Below are positions 5,400 through 63,169 of a DNA stretch of 64,000 nt, in pieces. The stretch is from positions 39,566,995 to 39,630,994 of the forward strand of contig CP141142.1 in the NCBI GenBank assembly GCA_035235625.1. Direction: 5' to 3'. Under the pieces are notes generated by a model. It did no database searches. It saw only the letters and a program-made list of their open reading frames with translations, and was not told the DNA's origin. The DNA is from Saururus chinensis. Its lineage: Eukaryota > Streptophyta > Magnoliopsida > Piperales > Saururaceae. Numbering within the stretch: position 1 is the stretch's first letter; each line of letters opens with the position of its first letter. The translations under genes and the position numbers were made by a program.

Positions 5400-6029
5400 G
5401 CTCCGGCAAATCCATTCCTTTCGTCAACGACCAGATTCTCCGCCCCTTCCTTTCTTTATTATTTCCATAATTCCATTTTTTATGGTCGCCGAGTGGGTCC
5501 CACCCCAGCCATGCTAATCACCCTCTTAATTGCAAGTCTAATTAAGAGATTTGTCAGAAAAAAATGGAAATTTCATTGGCCAAATAGTCAACATTGTAAA
5601 ATATTCTTCTTCAGCGTGTGATCTTCTGCACCACAATCGTTAACATTTCTTATCAAAAAATAAAAAAAACTCGTTAACATTTCATCAGACTTTGTTTTTA
5701 ATGGCCATTTAATCAGACTTAGTTAAGCTTGGGGACACAAGTTCTTTTTTAATAAGAAAAGGTTTATATATTCCTCTATGTGCTTGTACGTAGGCGTGGG
5801 ATGCAGGTAAAACTGACCCAGGTTAAGTTTAAATTTTTAAATTTAATTATAAATAACAATATAACTCAGGTTTGGTCAATTAAAGTTATAAATATAATTT
5901 TTTAAAATTATATTTTTTATATTTTAATAAATTTTAACTTGACTCAACCTTAATGAGTGAGGTTTAAGTTTCTAAATCTAACTTAAATAACTATTTAAGT
6001 TAAATTTAAATTTATTATTTCTTAAATAA
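5400..6029. other. Intergenic DNA upstream of the kinase gene
   Basis: The right part (5810-6029) is T/A-rich and repetitive, with many TTAAGTTTAAATTT-like words, probably a decayed transposon. No gene was recognised. Confidence 0.45.
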
Positions 6030-6101
6030 CATTAGGTTCAAGTTTGATAAAACTCCTCCCAATGGCATTAGGTTCAAGTTTGATAAAACTCCTCCCAATG
6101 G
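6030..6101. repeat. Two perfect tandem copies of a 36-bp unit
   Basis: A 36-bp unit beginning CATTAGGTTCAAG is present twice head to tail (6030-6065 and 6066-6101) with no difference that I can see. It is a recent local duplication with no apparent coding role. Confidence 0.85.
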
Positions 6102-6255
6102 CATCCTACACTGGTGTCTACCGCAAGCCTTCGGATTTTAATATGGCACAAGTGTCAAATGAGAGGGGCTTTTAACGCCCATCTCAAATCAAATCAAGGC
6201 AAACAAACCCAAAGTTGTATGCACATACTAGAGAGAGAGAGTTCATATCCGGTAG

Positions 6256-45189: not shown

Positions 45190-47540
45190 AAAATTGGGTT
45201 GCCTCCCAAGAGCGCTAAGTTTATTGTCTTTAGCCATATACACATCTATCTAAACTAATCCAGGGTCCTTTAAAGCAATTATATTTTCTTTATCAATTCT
45301 CCTTATCAAATGAAATTGAGCTAAACAAATATTTAGTGGATCATCAGAATGAATGAAAGGAAAACATCATCTACTAGACTCTCAATCATGTCAACCTCAA
45401 AAGTATCATCGCAGTATGAAGGTTGTCTATTTATATCAAAGATATTTAACTCACATGTCAAGTTCCCAAATGAAAGCTTCTTCACTCCATTTCAATAATT
45501 TATTAAAGGATTAGATGTAGCAAGGAAAGGACAACCCAAAATAACAGGAATTCGCCCATGACTATTTTGAACAGGCTGAGTATCAAGGACTACAAAGTAT
45601 ATTGAAAAGTAAAATATGTCAACCTTAATTAAAACATCTTCAACAACACCTGTAGAAATTTTTACAGATCTATCAGCTAATTGAAGTTCATTGATGTGAG
45701 TTTTAACTCTCCCAATCCCAATTGCACATACACAGAATATGACAATAAATTCACACTAGCCTGTAAATCTAATAAAGCCTGCTCAATGTGATATTCCCCT
45801 ATCTTGCATAAAATTGTGGGACAACCTGGGACTTTATATTTGATAGGGAATTTGCATTGAATAATAGAGTTGACTTACACTGTCAGGATTGCCTTTCTAG
45901 GAATATTTGTTTTCCTCTTCACTATGACTAAATCTTTTAAGAAGTTAGCATAGGAGGGCACTTGTTGGATAACATCAAGGAATGGATGTTTATCTGTACT
46001 TCTTAAACACCTCTAAAATATCTTTAAACTGTGCATTTTTCTTAGGATTGACTAGTCTTTGAGGAAATGGGGCTTTATGCATAAAATTCATAACTGGGGT
46101 CAACTAAAATAGGTGGGGAGTCATTGGGTTTCTGCTTCTCACTTTTTGACTCTGTATTCTCAGTTTTCTCTTCTTCAGATATTTTTACATGATTATCAAT
46201 CTGTCGCCCAAATATAAGAGTGGTGATTGACTGTACATGCCCCTGGTCATGTGATGAATTTGAAGTATTACTAACAACATATTGACCTTTAGGGTTGGGT
46301 ATAGGCTGACTGGGAAACTTACCTTTCTCTCTCTCCCCTACATGAGTTGCTAACTGGCCAATTTGAGTTTCTAGTTTAGCTATGACTTGAGTGCTCATTT
46401 GACTAGAATTTTTATGTGCTAATATGGCTTAGTTAGTAGATTGCATGAATATTTTAAGAGACTCTTTAAGTGATGATTGTTGAGGTGGTGGTGCAACAAC
46501 TTGAGGAGCTAATTGGGGAAAAAAGTGTAGGGGGGGTGGGCTGCCTTAAATTAGTTGACATCTGCTGCATTGGTGGCCCTACTCCATTCATGGGAGGTTG
46601 GTTTTGCCTTCAAGAAAAAATTGGATGATTTTGCCAATTTGGATTTTATGTCTCAGAGAAGGGACTGCCAAACGGTTTCCCATAATTATTTAGTATATTT
46701 TCTTGTCAGCAAAGCTCTCAGAATAGCCTAACATAGAAGAACACATTTAAGCAGTATGCATTGGACTTGCACAAAGAGAACACACTTCATTTTGAATATG
46801 GTTGGCAAAATTCATATTTCTATCAAAGGTCATGGCTTCTACTTTTCTAGTTAGCTGGTCCAACCTAGCTTTTATGTCAATATCTTCCCTTACTTCATAT
46901 AAGCTTCCTTTCCTGGGGTTTTGGGTTGGTTTTTTTTTTATGGCTCAAAAAGTTTCATTGCTGGGAACTCTAAGACAAACTCTTGAGGAACTTATATGTT
47001 GCATCATCATTAAGACTCAAGATACACCCACTGTACATGGATTCAATTATATTGCGGTGTGTTTGAGTCAAACCACTGTAAAAGTATTGCACAAGCCTCC
47101 ATGTTTCAAAACCATGATGGGGACACTTCAAAAGAAAATCCTTAAACCTCTCCCAACTCTCATAAAATTTTTCATGCTCCTCTTGACAAAAGTAAGCTAT
47201 CTCTCCTTAAGGCATTGGTTTTAGACATTGGGAAATTTTTTGAAAGGAACTTGGTAAAAGTTCCTCCCATGAATTAATAGACCCTGTTGGAAGAGAATTT
47301 AACCATGCCTTAGCTTTATCTGTTAATGAGAAAGGAAACAAGCATAGACGGACTGACTCATAAAAAAAAATTAAAATTTAAATGTAGCTTATATTTCAAG
47401 AAAATCATTTACATATATATAAGGATCCTCTCTGTCAAGACTCCAGAAGGTGGGGAGAAGTTGAATGACTTGAGCTTTCAACTCAAAGTGTTTGGCAATG
47501 ATAGCATGCAATACTATGCATGAGGGAGGACTGATAGAAA
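45190..47540 (-). mobile_element. Ty3-type (Athila/Tat lineage) gag-protease fossil
   Basis: Read on the minus strand, gag remains lie at the right (about 46700-47540, with words such as GFETWRLVQYFYSGL) and protease-region remains at the left (about 45300-45900, with ILGCPFLATSN and KKLSFGNLTCELNIF). Reverse transcriptase and integrase were not found. It is broken, with many breaks. It may or may not be related to the solo LTR at 42744. Confidence 0.7.
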
Positions 47541-50321: not shown

Positions 50322-51500
50322 TTGTAAGGGGTGAAAGGTTGGGTTGAAAATCTATTACTTATCTTGTATATTTGATCGATTGGTGTGAACAAAACTAAAT
50401 CGAATTGAGGTCTCAATCTGAGAATTTTTTTTTTCATACTTCTCACTAATGATGAGTATAGCGTAAACTATACGCATGGACGGCCGTATCGATATGCATA
50501 AGAGTATCGATGATCATGGATATGGGTACGCGCCGATAATATGCTTCGTACTCACCGAAACGGGCATAAACCCTTTTATAAACATAAAAAAATATTATAA
50601 CTAATAATATATTATTATAATACTTCTTTTAGAGCATAATAAGACCATATAATACTGTATTAACCGATACGAGTATTCTAAAATTAATTTATTTAGAACT
50701 ATATACTATTATGCTCTCCGTCCCATATTAATATTGGTCATTCTTTCCCATAATTAATACTTTAAAATTAATTTATTTTAAAATAAATAATATGTTTAAT
50801 ATGAGTCTAAATTACATGTTTAAATAAATGTATATTTGTGGAACACTATATGTAAAAAAATAATTATGTAAATTATATGAACCTACCCGTATTAATCTCA
50901 TATAATTTTAAAAATATTATTTTTAATATAACTAAAATTTTAACTTTTGAAAAAGTTGGGTTTGAATTGTATTTTTATTTTAAAAAAATAAATTTTTTTA
51001 TTTATTTAAAAAAATAATTTTTTTATTTATTTTAATAAAATAAAATTTTTTATTTAAAAAAATTATTTTTATTTTTTTTAATTTAAAAATTAATTTTAAA
51101 TATTATATTTATATATATCAACCGTATCAATATAGTATGACTGATACAACCGATATGTACTAGAAAAAGGTATGGGGGGCATATCGCCCCTATATCATAT
51201 AAGTATCAACTAATATAGGTACATATCGACCGATACAGACCCATATCGATTGATACATCTTTTTATAACTACATATAAGAATCCTTAATATTTAAGATCA
51301 ACAATACATACATTAATATAAGTTACTATAAGTAATATTAATGTTAAAGAATAAAAAAAACTATTACTTCAATCTCTATTTTTGTAGGCAATAAGCTCAC
51401 GACCAGTTTCATCTCAAGCAATGTGAAGCCCTCACCCTAAACCTAAAGGGAATAAATTTTTTTTTTAAAAAATAAAATAAAGTTTAGAGTATGCCTCATT
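50322..51500 (+). mobile_element. Truncated second copy of the 47570 LTR, with an insertion
   Basis: Starting at GTAAGGGGTGAAAGGTTGG it matches the LTR at 47570 from about 80 bp inside, and again from about 51275 (GAATCCTTAATATTTAAGATC) to about 51480. It lacks both outer ends. An unrelated block at about 50478-51270 interrupts it. The block carries repeated GTATCGAT/ATCGATAC-type words at both ends and a Stowaway-like CTCTCCGTCCCATATTAAT at 50714. It is an old fossil. Confidence 0.65.
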
Positions 51501-51708
51501 TCCCATCCTAAACTTATCTATAATAAAATCAATTAAAATTAAAATTAAAATTAAAAAAATATTAAAAATAAAGAGACTTCTTCAAATCAAAACTAAGAAA
51601 TAAATCTTAACGCTTTTAAGTACAGTAAAGGCTTTCTTCTTCAAATCCAATCCTGCAACGCTGATGGAAGGAAGGGTAGAGGGGTTTCTTTGATCCCCTC
51701 GCGCAGCC

Positions 51709-51825
51709 ATGGCTAAGTCCCTACGAGGGCGGCCGGCCTTCCCGTCCGATTCGAGATCCGCTACTTCTTTGCCATCCCGCTCGTCTTCCAGCTCCGAGCT
51801 CTCTCCCGTCCACGAAAAGGAAAAG
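51709..51825 (+). CDS. Serine-rich first exon, possible 5' end of the RabGAP locus
   Basis: An ATG in a good context (GCGCAGCCATGGCTAAG) opens a 39-codon exon, MAKSLRGRPAFPSDSR then Ser-rich, ending HEKEK at a GT donor (AAAAG|GTTAGC) in phase 0. Base composition rises sharply against the flanks, as at other plant first exons. The next exon is not obvious. It may belong to the TBC RabGAP remains downstream on the same strand, but the N-terminus does not match RabGAP N-termini that I know, so the assignment is open. Confidence 0.4.
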
Positions 51826-53519
51826 GTTAGCGCTTTCTTTGCTCTTTCTCTCCTCTACTGTTTTCTTTAGGGTTTGAGCTTCTCTTCCTTTCTTTGCTCC
51901 CTTTTAATCCTACCAAGCCGAGCTCAGAAACCGAAAAGATTTCAATTTTTGTATTGCTTTGGACAGGGCCACTCCATGAAAGCGATTTCGACCTTGTCGT
52001 TTCCCTGATCCGAGACGACGACGTCGCAATCGAACTGCACTTGGAACTCTCTCTCACTGTCTGAATTTAGTTTGCCTAGTTGATGGGTCGAGTTCTTTTG
52101 TATCTATTACGCAGCTGCTATGTGAGTTTCCAAAAGGTTTGATATACATAATTTTTTTCACAGTTAGTGAATGACTCAACGTCTTGATCATGTTTTACTT
52201 AGTACCAGTAATTAGTCAAGCTTGAGTTTGATCTTTAAGCTCATATGATGATGTGCGTGTTGTTGTCTGGTTTTGAATTTGAGACAGTGGCTTTTAGTTT
52301 GTTGTGGAGGTGCTTTTGTTTTGCTGTTTTAGTTTGATTTTCCTCTTCCAAGTTGTAAAATAGTTTTCTTTCAATTAGTGGACTATTTAGCTTCGGCCAG
52401 GCTTTCTATTTTGTCTTGAAACAATTCAACAAGTAATTGAACAATGGATGCGATTTTACTTTGTGTTTTCTGTTATGTCTGTAAGCCTTTTTATTAAAGA
52501 GATTATGCAGAGTATGGCTTGTTTTTTAATTGATAAGGAAAATATGATTTTTGATTTTTTTGTGTGTTCAATATGAACTGAAGAGTAATTTTTTTACAAG
52601 TTGTCTGTCTCTAGACATATATGCAGTTTTTGACCTCAAAATTTTTCTGTCCCTCCTACCTAATGATCTTCTCTCTTCTTCTGACCGAGCTTTATTTAGT
52701 TCAACGAGCATAGACCCGTCATATATTGTACATATTCAGTATTATATGCTCTAAATGACTGTTTTCCTATTATCTAATGAATATCAGCTTAGATCGTCTT
52801 ATACTTTTAATTCGAAGGAATTGGCTTGGTGGAGAACCTTAGTAAACTATTGCAGAGTGCTTTGCTTGTGCGGAATAGCTATGAATGCAGCCTTCATGGA
52901 TTTCAGTGTTTATCTGGTCACTCTTAGCACTTGTGTGTGATTACAACAATGTTGGAAGTGGTTTTATGTTTTTAGAACTCAGCTTTTGGATCACGTAATA
53001 ACTGAAGCTGGTTGAGTTGGCCATGCCATTGATCATGTCTTAAGAGTTTTTTGTCATAAATAAGGTAGTACTGATTCATTTTGTGGGTGTTTTTGTCATC
53101 TTGGTCTGATGTAAGATACAGTTTTTTAAATATTGGATGCATTTTTTATTTATGCACTTATTTAATTATGCATTCTTAAACTGTTAAAAAGGGCTTCTCT
53201 TGTTCCTGAGTCCTTGGTCCTTTATGTTGAGAAATTGACAAGAAATGTCTGATAGAAATAATTTTTTTGTTTATTATTTGGTGTGCTGATTTTCTATGTA
53301 AATTTATGTGTTTTGTGGTAGTTTTATTTAAGTAAATTTATTCAATTTCATGTTAATCTTCCAAAGAGGTTATAGATTAGTGTTAGAGTTCAAAACAAGA
53401 GGCGATGCTCTATGTCTAATGATAGGCTATGTATACATCTTTAGTATGATTTGATACATATTTATTCTATTACTTACAGGCCCAATTTGATGGGAATGGA
53501 AGCATGGAAGCCTAGCCTT
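51826..53519. other. Intron-like T-rich sequence before the minisatellite
   Basis: The plus strand is T-rich, as in plant introns, with no recognised exon. A good acceptor (TATTACTTACAG) at 53479 is followed by GCCCAATTTGATGGGAATGG and then, within 40 bp, by the minisatellite. Confidence 0.45.
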
Positions 53520-55462
53520 AGAAAAAAAAATGGCAAACAAGCTGAGCCTGAGGAAAAAAAGAAAAAAAAGGCAAACAAGCTGAGCTTGAGAAAAAAAGAA
53601 AAAAAAAGGCAAACAAGCTGAGCCTGAGAAAAAAAGGAAAAAAAAGGCAAATAAGCTGAGCTTGAGAAAAAAAGAAAAAAAAAGGCAAACAAGCTGAGCC
53701 TGAGAAAAAAAGAAAAAAAGAAGGCAAATAAGCTGAGCCTGAGAAAAAAAGAAAAGAAAAAGGCAAATAAGCTGAGCCTGAGAAAAAAAGAAAAAAGAAG
53801 GCAAATAAGCTGAGCCTAAGAAAAAAAGAAAGAAAAAGGCAAACAAGCTGAGCCTGAGAAAAAAAGAAAAGAAAAAGGCAAACAAGCTGAGCCTGAGAAA
53901 AAAAGAAAAGAAAAAGGCAAACAAGCTGAGCCTGAGAAAAAAAGAAAAGAAAAAGGCAAACAAGCTGAGCCTGAGATAAAAAGAAAAGAAAATGGCAAAC
54001 AAGCTGAGCCTGAGAAAAAAAGAAAAAAGGCCAACAAGCTGAGCTTGAGAAAAAATAGAAAAAAAAAGGCCAATAAGGTGAGCCCGAGAAAAAAAGAAAA
54101 GAAAAGGCAAACAAGCTGAAACAGAGAAAAAAAGAAAAAAAAAGGCACAATATGAGCCTGAGAAAAAAAGAAAAAAAAAGGCAAACAAGCTGAGCCTGAG
54201 ATAAAAAGAAAAAAAAGGGGCAAACAAGCTGAGCCTGAGAAAAAAAGAAAAAAAAAGGCAAATAAGCTGGGCCTTAGAAAAAAAGAAAAAAAAGGTAAAC
54301 AAGCTGAGCCCGAGAAAAAAAGGCACAATATGAGCATGAGAAAAAGAGAAAAAAAAGGCTAACAGGCTGAGCCTGAGAAAAAAAGAAAAAAAAGGCACAA
54401 GCTGAGCATGAGAAAAATAGAAAAAAAAGGTAAACAAGCTGAGCCTGAAAAAAAAAAGAAAAAAAAACGCAAACAAGCTTAGCCTGAGAAAAAAAGAAAA
54501 AAAAGCAAATAAGCTGAGCTTGAGAAAAAAAGAAAAAAAAAGGCAAAGAAACTAAGCCTGAGAAAAAAAAGAGGCAAATATGCTGAGCCTGAGAAAAAAA
54601 GAAAAAAAAAAAGCAAACAAGCTGAGCTTGAGAAAAAAGAAAAAAAGAGGCAAACAAGTTGAGCCTGAGAAAAAAAGAAAAAAAAAGGCAAAGAAGCTGA
54701 GCTTGAGAGAAAAAAAAAAGCAAACAAGCTGAGCCTGAGAAAAAAGAAAAAAAAAGGCAAATAAGTTGAGCCTGAAAAAAAAAAAAAAGGCAAACAAGCT
54801 GAGCCTGAGAGAAAAAGAAAAAAAAAGGCAAACAAACTGAGCCTGAGAAAAAAAGAAAAAAAAAGGCAAACAAGTTGAGCCTAACAAAAAAAGAAAAAAA
54901 AAAAGGCAAACAAGCTAGCCCGAGAAAAAAAGAAAAAGGTAAACAAGTTGAGCCTAAGAAAAAAAGAAAAAAAAAGGCAAACAAGCTAAGCCTCAGAAAA
55001 AAAAAAAAAAAGGCAAACATGCTGAGCCTAAGAAAAAAAGAAAAAAAAAGGCAAACAAGCTGAGCTTCAGAAAAAAAAAAAAAGGCAAACATGCTGAGCC
55101 TAAGAAAAAAAGAAAAAAAAAAGGCAAACATGTTGAGCCTGAGAAAAAAAAAAAAGGCAAACAAGCTGAGCCTAAGAAAAAACGAAAAAAAAAGGCAAAC
55201 AAGCTAAGCCTCAGAAAAAACGAAAAAAAACAGCAAACAAGCTGAGCCTGATGAAAAAAGAAAAATAAAGGCAAACATGCTGAGCCTGAGAAAAAAAGAA
55301 AAATAAAGGCAAACAAGCTGAGCCTGAGAAAAAAAGAAAAAAAAAGGCAAACAAGCTGAGCCTGAAAAAATAAAAAAAAGGCAAACAAGCTGATCCTGAG
55401 AAAAAAAGAAAAAAAAAGGCAAACAAGCTGAGTTTGAGAAAAAAAAAGGGAAACAAGCTAGG
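53520..55462 (+). repeat. Purine-rich minisatellite, unit about 37-43 bp
   Basis: About 50 head-to-tail copies over 1.94 kb. Each unit has a core GGCAAACAAGCTGAGCCTGA (variants AATAAGCTGAGC, GAGCTTGAG) followed by an A-run with an internal G (A7GA8, A7GA4GA5 and similar). Units differ mainly in A-run length and in single core changes. Some stretches (53860-53960) contain nearly identical 43-bp units, which suggests recent local amplification. The plus strand is almost all A/G outside the core. The minus strand is open for hundreds of codons in all three frames only because T-rich DNA lacks stops. This is not a gene. It lies upstream of the first recognisable RabGAP exon. Confidence 0.95.
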
Positions 55463-56163
55463 CCGGATAAAAAATGAAATCTTGTTCATTCAAGTTTGAC
55501 TACACACAATTATGCCTTTTTTTCTTTTTTTCTTAAGATTTTATTGTACATTTATAATTTAACTGAACAATTAAATATTACTAATAAACAAATATTCACT
55601 TGACTGTTGTTTTGGCATGCATTTGCATTTTGTCAAATTATTAGTCCTTGTTGCTATATTTTGATGAATTCTTACTCCTGGAAGTCAAGCATCTTTAAGG
55701 CGCATTCTTGCTGGATACTCTTTTCGAGATTCAAATGTTGGGTACTGTCAGGTACTCTACTGCTATTATATGTATAGAAAGTGTTGGTGTATTCTTTTCA
55801 TTATATGTAATAGGCATAGCATTAGACCTTGCCCTATAGGAATTTAAGGATTTGCTTGTTAGGAAGTGCCCGAGGTATTGTTTCCATTATGCTCTGGTTT
55901 TGTAATCTAATTCAATGTGGGTTAATTGGGATGGCCTATATTCTTTTCCTTTTTTTTACTTGCATAATAGCTTTTCATCTTAAAGCTTTGGGGTTTGATG
56001 TTTCTCTTGTTACTACTGAGTGGTTCTTGTGTCTCTTCTCCAAGACCTTGCTTCCTGAGGTAAGATACTCTTTTAGTAGTAATTGAAAATTTGAATATAG
56101 TTTTAATGGAGACTGAGCAAGTACAATTGGAAAACTTCAGCTGCTCTTTATCAGATCTATAGT

Positions 56164-56293
56164 GCTTGTGTAGCCAGAAAGAACTGTGATGAAAATGCCC
56201 CACACAATCTTTTGGATTTGACTTTTTACTTGTGTAGTCAGAAAGTACGTGATGAAAATGCCCCACACAATCTTTTGGGTTTTATTTTTTACT
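56164..56293. repeat. Local tandem duplication in a RabGAP intron
   Basis: A unit of about 65 bp (core GATGAAAATGCCCCACACAA) occurs twice in succession with several differences. A second similar duplication of about 65 bp lies at 57159-57285 (core CAATTTTATGATRRAAA). Both are intronic and noncoding. Confidence 0.7.
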
Positions 56294-57761
56294 GTTGTCT
56301 CATCTCAGCTTTTGTCGAATTGTACGAGGTGTAAGTATTATGTAACGTATAGTTGATTTTATTGTAAGGATGCCTTTCAATAGTCAATTTTACATTTTGA
56401 GATCATATTTTTGATTAGTTAGAAATTTTTCTAGCAGGGAAGATAGGCGTAGGAAAAGAAGGATAGGGCTTATAAGAAAAGATAAACATGAACTTGCAGA
56501 TTAGAACTTTTTGTGGAGTAGAATAAAACAGACTCTACAGGTAGAAAATAGTTGGGTTGTTGGTACTAATGATGATGAAGGGCTCCCATTGATCTTTGTT
56601 ATTTTTAGATCCCTGATTCTAGTCCAATAAGTTGACTTTTTTTTTCCGTGTGGATGTTCAATTTTTTTTTCTCAATTTTTTTGTAAAATAACTGTACATT
56701 TTGGGGACATCTGGGTGAGCAAGTTTTGAAAAAAAAAAACTCATCCTTTTCTTTTGCCAGTCTCTTGCTTCAAAATTTCATGCAAGCTATCAATATTGGT
56801 AACCTGGCTCAAAGCGTTCTTTTCTTCTAAGCGCAATATACATCATTGTTAATTTTTAAGATGTTTTCTATATAGCATTGTCTATACTTCAGAGTTCATT
56901 GTTACCTTTAACTTCTCACAGCTATCTTTTCAAGTAGCACCTTTTAGTTGCACCACTGTAAAATTGATTCTTTTTTAGTGTTTTAAGTCAATGTTATTAT
57001 TTTGTCATTTAGAGATATGCTTTGATTTAAGTAGCAAGCATCACACTGTGGACACTGTATTTAACTAAAATATTTTTCCATAATTGATGGTAGAAGATTT
57101 TAAAGAGTTTGGTACAAGCATGATTTGGATACTTGGGATCCAATGGTGATACTGATCTGAACTATCTAATTTTATGATGGAAAATCATATGCTACTATCT
57201 GAACTAGAGAGGCAAAAGTAAAACTAACCAATTTTATGATAAAAATCCATCTACATATGCTACTACGTGAACCAGAGAGGTGAAGGGCAAATCTGTACTT
57301 CAAATTATATATATATGGAGAAAGGTTCAACATGAATTGATATTATTGAGATTTAGGGTGAAAGTACAAGTAGAACCTCAGGGAGCAAAGTGATAGGTGC
57401 TGTATTCTGTTACATAGAACCAGAATACTTGTGTTCGCTTGTTTCTATGTTTGGTAAAAAATAACTTGACTTCTGTGCAATTTGTTTATCTTGTTCTGTG
57501 ACTAATATTCTGGTTCTATTAACATATCTTTAGACAACCCTGAGTGTTTTGGATGTTCTTTTCAATGAGGGGGCCCAAATTTTGTTTCAGGGTTGCCTTG
57601 GCAATTTTCAAGGTTAGTAGTTCATATATCATCTAATACCTTTCTTCTTTCTTGTAGTATATAGGATTTTGTCCGAACTGAAATTGCCTATTTTCTGAAG
57701 AAAGATAAGCTTTAGTATCCATAATTGCAGACGAAGGAAGAACAGTTGCTAGTTACTCAGT

Positions 57762-58808
57762 AGATTGGCGGAATGGTCTCTGTCATCAAAAGAATGGAAG
57801 ATTGTTGCTCGTCAATTATTCAAATTAGGAATGGTTGAGGAAGTGTTGAAGCTTTTCAAGCTTATGGATAAGGACTGGCGCAAGATTACTGATATGTGAT
57901 CATTCCTTGTCAAAGAGTTCTGCATTGCGGTACTGACAAGTGTTGGACGTGTTCTTCTTACTGAGATCTACAGTAGGGGCTTGGAGTTGGAACGGTATGC
58001 TTTCAACCATCTTATTTGGGGGTTTTGTAGGGAGAAAAAGTTTTATAAGGCTCTGGAAGTTTTTGAATTGGTTCTTGAAAAGAGGATAATACCATCTATG
58101 GATGCGTTCCAACTTCTAATTGCTCACCTATGTTGTTCCCATGAACTTCAGAAGGCACTGGCTTTAAAGGAGGTCATGTTAACTAGGCAAGGCAAAATTT
58201 TTGGATCGCATAGTGGTAAAAAGTATTATTCCAGACAATTCAGTTATGATGTGTTGATCAGACGCTTGTGTAGGTACGGAAGGTTGAATAAGGCAATTGA
58301 ACTACTAAACGTGATGTTGAAAAAAGGTACTCTTCCAGTTTATGTCTGTTACAATTCAATCGTTTGTGGGTTATGTCTCCATGGAACATTAGATCAAGCT
58401 CTTGATTTCCATGCTGATATGCTTCATAAGAACCTTATACCAAGCATAAAATGTGCCAAGGTGCTTATCCACATGCTTTGTAATAAAAGGCGGGCTTCAG
58501 AGGCAGAAAAGCTTTTGGTATCCATGTGTAGGTCAGGCCAAACGCCAAACCATGACACGTTCCAGATGGTGATAAATTGTTACTTGTTGGATAAGAACAT
58601 AAATAAAGCATCAGAAAATTTGGAGTTGATGCAACAAAAGGGGTACCAGGCAGATTTTAGAACTCAGTGGTCTCTGATAAGCAATTTAAACAGAGGAGAT
58701 GAGGGAGGCAATAGAAACAGCAAGGGATTTTTGTCTCGACTTCTTTCCGGGAGTGGGTTTCACATGAAGGATAGAAAAGCGAAGGATGATGAACAACTTC
58801 ATAATTAG
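57762..58808 (+). pseudogene. Truncated P-class pentatricopeptide repeat gene
   Basis: An intronless reading frame with about five and a half PPR motifs. Examples are YAFNHLIWGFCREKKFYKAL, FSYDVLIRRLCRYGRLNKAI, CYNSIVCGLCLHGTLDQALD and KVLIHMLCNKRRASEAEKLL. It ends in a lysine/aspartate-rich tail and a TAG at 58806-58808. The same frame continues upstream through KEWKIVARQLFKLGMVEEVL to about 57762, but with an in-frame TGA at 57897-57899. The N-terminal part and organelle-targeting peptide that such proteins need are missing. After the TGA the frame is open for over 300 codons, so the loss may be recent. Intact relatives bind organellar RNA. It starts right where the RabGAP exon at 57731 breaks off. 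Confidence 0.8.
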
Positions 58809-61549: not shown

Positions 61550-62250
61550 TGACTTCACTTTTATTGTAATTTGAGCTTTTATCTACTAAAGTGTAATCGA
61601 CAAATGATGGAATGGAAACTCATTCAATTGTATTTTCTTCCTTTTCTTACATCCTGAGCCAATACACAAAATCAATAACAAGCTATTACAACCAGAAACA
61701 AAAACAGATAACTACCAACAATCCACCATCTTCTCCATTTCTACTCATTCTCCCTATCTACCTAGTTCAACCCCTCTTCCCCTCATCTTCTCTGGTTGTA
61801 TCACAACTTCCCTGGCTTGAAAAATATTGAGCTCTAAACCTATTTATGTGTTTATGTTATTCTAACAAATTACTTTCTCCACATATTAATCTAAATAGAT
61901 TGACTTCACTTTTATTGTAATTTGAGCTTTTAGCTACTAAAGTGTAATTGACAAATGATGGAATGGAAACTCATTCAATTGTATTTTCTTCCTTTTCTTA
62001 CATCCCGAGCCAATACACAAAATCAATAACAAGCTATTACAACCAGAAACAAAAACAGATAACTACCAGCAATCCACCATCTTCTCCATTTCTACTCATT
62101 CTCCCTATCTGCTCAGTTCAACCCCTCTTCCCCTCATCTTCTTTGGTTGTATCACAACTTCCCTGGCTTGAAAAATATTGAGCTCTAAACCTATTTATGT
62201 ATCTATGTTATTCTAACAAATTACTTTATGCACATATTAATCTAAACAGA
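61550..62250. repeat. Tandem duplication, unit about 350 bp
   Basis: 61550-61899 and 61901-62250 are nearly identical, beginning GACTTCACTTTTATTGTAAT. A shorter third piece at about 61163-61220 shares CGACAAATGATGGAATG and the following 50 bases. The sequence resembles an LTR or UTR rather than coding DNA. Confidence 0.85.
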
Positions 62251-63169
62251 TTGCTATATAAACTCAAGTTTAAGTAAACATACTCTTATGTACTCTTAAA
62301 AATAAATATTGACCACTAAAACAATATTTAAATGTTCAATACGTGATGCAGATGTCAATCGGTGGAGAGAAAAATTAGGGCTTTCGAATGTTGAGTGACA
62401 AAAGCGGTAGATTTGAGATCCAAAGGTGAGACAGACGAACCTGGGGAGATGCCTCAGAGATAGTTTCTCTAGGAGTGATAGAGGATGGAGAGCAGATGAG
62501 GAGGGGCAACAACAGGAGATGACGGAGGCAGGAGATGATGAGGAGGGTCTCGGTGAGTGGTGGAGGTGCAGTGGCAACCTTGGAGAGGAGAGGAATGGAG
62601 AGTGTGAGAGCAGGTAGAGAGGAGAGCCGGAGGCGGCGAAATGGAACAACCACTGCTTTAGCTGACAGTAGCAACATTGGGCAGTTGACCTCCCCGGTCA
62701 CTATTTGAGGGAGGGATAGGCTTCAAACTTCAAATTCAGCAAATCAGCCGGGCAAATACATTTGATCCTCGGGTTATAAAATTACACGTAATTTGATTCC
62801 TTTGCTTAATCAGCCCAAAATTTAGCTCATAACAAACAGCCGAAAAAGTAGGCCTTTGGCTGGCTTTTAAGTGAGTTAATCAGCTAAGACCTGATTAAGG
62901 TAAACAAAAAGACCCTTAGACCAAACAAAGGGACCCTAAGTCAAACATGTACATGATATATATTTTTTTAATCCTCAAGGTAGCCATGACTATGTAAAGT
63001 GGACTATAACCCATTATTTTACTAAAATCGCAGGTGGCATTTGATAAGATTGGTTCCATCCCGACCAATGCTATTGCCAAGAAGAGAAGAAAGTAGGAAT
63101 CCTCAGTGATAAAAGAGCTAGTTCAGCAATTGCAACGACTTAATTTTTTTAGATTCATTGATTAATATA

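Follow-up and report, generated by a model that had tools for sequence, protein, structure and literature searches.

A purine-rich minisatellite family in copies of a broken SR45/RNPS1-like gene of Saururus chinensis

Introduction

According to its published account, the minisatellite BvMSat07 of sugar beet has a unit of ~30 bp that combines a microsatellite motif with further short motifs; it was enlarged by slippage and recombination, and it is dispersed on the chromosomes (PMC2820488). As for how such arrays begin, a second account presents the model of Haber and Louis, in which short repeats flank a segment and slippage or unequal exchange between them founds the minisatellite; it also describes minisatellites as often embedded in mobile elements, with examples from rice, soybean and Alu (PMC6947457). 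Arguments about how minisatellites are born usually rest on finished arrays.

Here we analyzed a stretch of 64,000 nucleotides from Saururus chinensis (contig CP141142.1, positions 39,566,995 to 39,630,994; hereafter the window) and the family to which its one large array belongs. We searched a genome of 516 Mb in 11 contigs; the window array lies on C3 and the other copies are named by chromosome. The array is probably a non-coding minisatellite within a duplicated and dead copy of an RRM gene resembling SR45/RNPS1, amplified from a composite seed and spread by duplication of blocks. It is a natural example of minisatellite origin and spread, and it belongs to a known kind of element.

With BvMSat07 the family shares a composite unit that includes a microsatellite motif, and its dispersal (PMC2820488). 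Unlike BvMSat07 as that account presents it, the family has a duplicated splicing-factor pseudogene as host, has unexpanded relatives in the same genome, and has an A/G run as the second half of its unit. As in the model of Haber and Louis, the future unit is flanked by short direct repeats; the seed differs in being two adjacent simple tracts, and the first duplication itself is not seen. The dispersed tandem array with shared flanks also recalls minisatellites carried by mobile elements as that source portrays them, but the flanks here consist of gene exons and introns, and the blocks that contain them vary in extent. Unexpanded, few-unit and fully expanded states with common flanks appear to coexist in one genome, so a comparison of the copies can test in what order the steps took place.

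The array and its dispersal

The array and the sequence that directly follows it were delimited as follows.

53520-55478, plus strand: minisatellite of ~52-54 units, mostly 37-39 bp (Tandem Repeats Finder [TRF], composition and core-matching scripts)
55479-55596, plus strand: 3' flank, hereafter the 3' module, common to 6 of the 16 other arrays in the fetched stretches and to the C9 relative
55592-55662, unstranded: short dispersed repeat at the joint with a RabGAP remnant (genome search rows 113-183 match many other places)

A preliminary description, made from the letters of the window, had proposed an array of about 50 copies, and TRF confirmed it (period 38, 52.0 copies, 84% matches, score 2590, at 53520-55445). 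In 30 dinucleotide-preserving shuffles of the stretch the top score was 168 (periods 25-80). The core-matching script found 54 units at 53503-55467 with a median period of 38, the first of them a loose match in the lead-in; spacings of 38 (21 times) and 39 (11 times) were the commonest. With 52 copies over ~1.9 kb, the array falls within the usual size of minisatellites, which have head-to-tail units of ~10-100 bp in arrays of ~0.5 kb to several kb. Much of the variation among units lies in the length of their A-runs, largely as had been proposed. The extent first given, 53480-55690, reaches past the end of the array: the array stops at ~55478, and 55479-55690 comprises the 3' module, the dispersed repeat and the first bases of the RabGAP remnant.

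One strand had also been called nearly pure A/G, a class prone to triplex formation and slippage. Nearly pure it is not: the plus strand of the array is 80% purine (59% A, 21% G, 12% C and 8% T), its longest purine run has 23 bases, and runs of at least 12 hold 51% of the bases. At that purine content and run length, the array lacks the long, near-pure purine strand of a triplex-forming polypurine mirror repeat.

Nor is the array tied to one locus, and it had been said beforehand that finding it as a dispersed satellite would speak against its growth from the exon. The genome search with 53400-53700 gave 266 matches, among which, by hand count of the matches listed, those reaching the array fall at at least 20 places on C1-C6. 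A 28-base core, allowed up to 2 mismatches, occurs 209 times in the whole genome (134 forward, 75 reverse), and the reversed control occurs 0 times. Among these paralogous stretches of one assembly, the number of units per array ranges from 6 to 82. We found no publication title that names this minisatellite family, which does not prove that the family is unpublished.

The host: a dead SR45/RNPS1-like gene

Five remnants of the host gene precede the array in the window.

51694-51825, plus strand: SR45-like exon 1 remnant with an ATG at 51709 (MAKSLRGRP...) and a donor at 51826; 51694-51808 is 83% identical to C2:48158812-48158927 (presumed exon 1)
51826-53188, plus strand: pseudogene intron 1, the best-conserved part among the copies
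53189-53248, plus strand: broken RRM exon 2 remnant, 88% identical to positions 7-66 of the relative at C2:48.16 Mb
53352-53407, plus strand: truncated RRM exon 4 remnant, with its 3' part and donor deleted (MAFFT alignment with the same relative)
53480-53503, plus strand: start of SR45-like exon 5 after the acceptor at 53479 (AQFDGNGS), with a frame that stops after 11 codons (MAFFT alignment with the same relative, and frame scan)

The relative at C2:48.16 Mb (L047) has RRM exons that are open in the pieces RKASPVPESLVLYVEQLTRNVNEGHLKEIFS, NFGEVVHVELVMDRN, VNLPRGYGYVEFKTRADADKALLYMDG and AQIDGNVIHARFTLPPRQK, and its joined RRM exons match Pfam RRM_1 with an E-value of 1.6e-19. The name SR45 is provisional and comes from a comparison with the Arabidopsis SR45 sequence. 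The matches of that sequence to the C2:48.16 Mb relative cover 31 residues with 74% identity (E 5.5e-8) and 29 residues with 62% identity (E 0.0066); most of the other RRM genes listed match it at 28-37%. When the joined RRM was compared with solved structures and ranked by whole-chain E-value, nucleolin came first and RNPS1 (4a8x) sixth; for a 35-residue piece of one copy, 4a8x came first with a weak match (E 0.013). The host resembles SR45/RNPS1 in its exon order and in the AQIDG start of an exon, but the window copy is broken: exon 3 is missing, exon 4 is truncated, and the array replaces the rest of exon 5.

The window pseudogene is homologous, exon by exon, to this RRM gene with open exons, and the lesions that disable it recur in other copies. 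Exon 3 is missing from all seven aligned array copies, the window included (MAFFT with L047). The deleted form of exon 4 was found in 11 of 11 array-bearing stretches (at 16 places, of which one matched weakly, with 8 edits); in the same scan for both forms, the intact form was found only in the C2:48.16 Mb relative and in a relative on C9 (L046). The frame of exon 5 stops within 9-29 codons in all 11 stretches. In exon 1, length differences break the frame in an alignment of 11 copies, and exon 2 has a 13-nt gap in the window and in copies c3a, c4 and c6b (MAFFT with L047, the window and six copies). Because the exon 4 deletion is common to all 11 stretches and absent from the C9 and C2:48.16 Mb relatives, the array copies descend from one gene that was already broken when its spread began.

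The splice acceptor proposed at 53479 is present as TTACTTACAG followed by GCC, and it is conserved in the aligned copies together with the first ~20 bp of exon 5. The short lead-in after it, suspected from the start to be exonic, is thereby borne out as a true exon start, that of SR45-like exon 5.

Two observations concern the C2 copies. In the C2:17.25 Mb copy (L033, exon 1, ~5900-6250), as in some other C2 copies, exon 1 has a repeat of its own of ~74 bp, so a second exon of the dead gene has expanded as well. Further along this copy (joined stretch L033-L034, 11102-11314), a frame, EGKPIPTKPRNEEAALRKEIDFEDE, lies downstream of the array as a piece of another gene joined to the family. It has a putative likeness to the ribosome-biogenesis factor IMP4; we rejected IMP4 as the host of the C2 copies, since the frame has no Pfam family and a search with a different piece gave nothing convincing.

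Origin of the unit

Three relatives hold the region in an unexpanded or little-expanded state. The C9 relative has the SR45-like intron, then ~190 bp of degenerate GCCTGAAG-like sequence, four GAGCCN, one A/G run and the 3' module; it thus has a single unit-like stretch where the array would be, and lacks the exon 4 deletion. In a relative on C7 (L049), seven GAGCCT and a single A/G run are followed by the 3' module seen in C9 and the window. No SR45 exon 1 match was found in this C7 stretch, and its tract is therefore linked to the family by the 3' module only. At C5:15.205 Mb (L048) there are a few degenerate units, with an exon 1 match 3 kb upstream. The likeness of these stretches to the unit was reached by 2 of 1000 shuffles for C9, 7 of 1000 for C7 and 4 of 1000 for C5:15.205 Mb, values that are uncorrected and apply to stretches picked by eye.

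The preliminary description held that the array had expanded from the exon adjoining the acceptor at 53480. One half of that proposal agrees with the C9 relative, where the upstream intron and the 3' flank are those of the window copy and enclose just one unit-like stretch, so that the unexpanded state is preserved at the equivalent place; the array does start ~20-40 bp inside exon 5, and a GAGCCTGA-like stretch follows that exon in the intact gene. The other half fails: SR45 exon 5 scores 17 against the unit, a score equalled by 364 of 1000 shuffles, so we found no homology between unit and exon and rejected exon 5 as the source. The A/G run and the GAGCCT tract instead occur together with the 3' module, and we regard growth of the unit from the exon itself as unlikely. 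The stretch past exon 5 in the intact C2:48.16 Mb gene, GAGTCTGAGCCTGATGCCTGA (L047 ~850-875), scores intermediately (22 of 1000 shuffles reach its score), and for this reason a home-grown seed in the parent gene is possible.

The composite seed favored here would have been a short (GAGCCN)n tract beside an A/G run in an ancestral copy, the two having been duplicated as one unit, presumably through unequal exchange or slippage during replication. From there the array would have grown and drifted into at least two unit types, of ~38 bp (C3, C4, C6 and part of C5) and ~32 bp (C2 and part of C5), and would have reached its other sites as blocks several kilobases long were duplicated. Its existence can be explained without any function.

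These two types were seen in a comparison of unit distances, which covered 581 units of 16 arrays (arrays with <9 units and units >60 bp were left out). A 38-bp group (C3, C4, C6 and C5:1.4 Mb) and a ~32-bp group (C2 and C5:11.7 Mb) differ by 0.24-0.31. Inside the 38-bp group, the distance within the window array is 0.16, and that between the window and c3a.0 or c4.0 is also 0.16. Since the distance between arrays equals that within the array, the array predates the spread within this group. Neighboring units of the window array are slightly more alike than expected by chance (0.152 at lags 1-3 vs 0.164; 3 of 2000 permutations were as low).

At C2:36.155 Mb, 67 uninterrupted GAGCCT adjoin 9 short (~30-bp) units. 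We offer tentatively, as less than probable, that the exon 5 end of the dead gene family may be a repeat-making site, at which two adjacent simple tracts gave rise to different minisatellites in different copies (the 67 GAGCCT of C2:36.155 Mb, the ~32-bp units of C2/C5 and the 38-bp units of C3/C4/C5/C6), with C9 and C7 in the starting state. If that were true, one genome would document minisatellite birth at its starting, intermediate and final stages, and would do so more than once.

Spread of the array

The copies share long blocks. The 1.4 kb upstream of the array (52000-53420) have counterparts with 85-96% identity, over most of their length, at no fewer than 20 other places, and two C6 copies, c6a and c6b, are 96-98% identical over nearly 20 kb. 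The blocks common to copies end at different places and extend beyond 7-20 kb, and breaks between copies also fall in intron 1. Among 17 arrays in the fetched stretches, 7 end in the 3' module and 10 run into other sequence; for 7 of the 17, the 300 bp upstream contain no SR45 sequence, and in some C2 and C5 copies the array lies ~1 kb or more beyond exon 5.

A transposable element might carry the array around, given some 20 dispersed places among the matches listed and the well-known occurrence of minisatellites in mobile elements (PMC6947457). The conserved parts, however, are gene exons and an intron, not the ends or proteins of an element, and duplication is favored over a mobile element because the shared blocks are long and end at different places. 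We therefore consider transposition improbable.

Between the same neighbors, ~800 bp of the window (50467-51270) are missing from several copies, either as an insertion in the window or as a loss elsewhere.

The RabGAP remnant next to the array

Parts of a gene other than the host of the array lie downstream of it.

55682-56333, plus strand: RabGAP/TBC remnant that begins inside an exon, 80-96% identical to C10:18.20 Mb
57424-57778, plus strand: RabGAP remnant, continued, 92% identical to C10
62937-63302, plus strand: further 3' part of the RabGAP remnant, 95% identical to C10

A TBC domain was found in pieces of the C10 RabGAP relative. Over the 8,449 bases compared, this intact-looking relative lacks any match to 51630-55680, and the RabGAP was rejected as the host gene of the array on that ground.

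It had been suggested that expansion of the array contributed to the damage of the RabGAP gene. The array does adjoin the remnant, and in c6a and c6b it runs straight into later RabGAP sequence (a later part that is present in C6 and C5 copies). Because the sequence after the arrays changes abruptly in other copies, with the 3' module absent from 10 of the 17, some role of the array in rearrangement is possible. In the window, however, the RabGAP break at 55682 lies ~200 bp past the array and beside the dispersed repeat; the joint recurs at three further C3 places, in two other fetched C3 stretches; and breaks fall in intron 1 too. The damage is thus not plainly due to the expansion, and breakage of the RabGAP gene by the array seems to us quite improbable; breakage inside arrays is possible, alongside the breaks in intron 1. 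Since the joint is common to the three other C3 places, the fusion of array and RabGAP is older than the window copy. The joining of the window copy to a truncated RabGAP piece would predate the separation of the C3 copies.

Within the RabGAP remnant, 56335-57409 is 93% like C6:38249440-38250529. An open frame of 302 residues with PPR repeats (57900-58808, plus strand; PPR_2 E 4.6e-34) lies between two of the remnant parts.

Open frames in the array and other features of the window

A coding role for the arrays, with a basic low-complexity product (EKKRKEKGKQAEP-like) maintained by selection, is hardly credible and was rejected: two of the three plus-strand frames of the unit lack stops, and plus-strand frames reach 99 residues in the window array, but the frames break often, the unit spacing is not in multiples of 3, the exon 5 frame stops ahead of the array in 11 of 11 stretches, and the array frames have no Pfam match.

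On the minus strand, an open frame of 374 residues (53427-54551) runs through the window array, and longer ones occur in other copies. We do not take these frames for genes, since they are long simply because the T/C-rich strand of the units has no stop codons. Where an array with open minus-strand frames adjoins a splice acceptor, it can pass for a coding exon, and such cases call for caution.

Elsewhere in the window, frames at 45492-47206 (minus strand) look by eye like a decayed, putative gag/protease region of a retrotransposon, and 61550-62253 holds two copies of a 351-bp tandem repeat with 96% matches.
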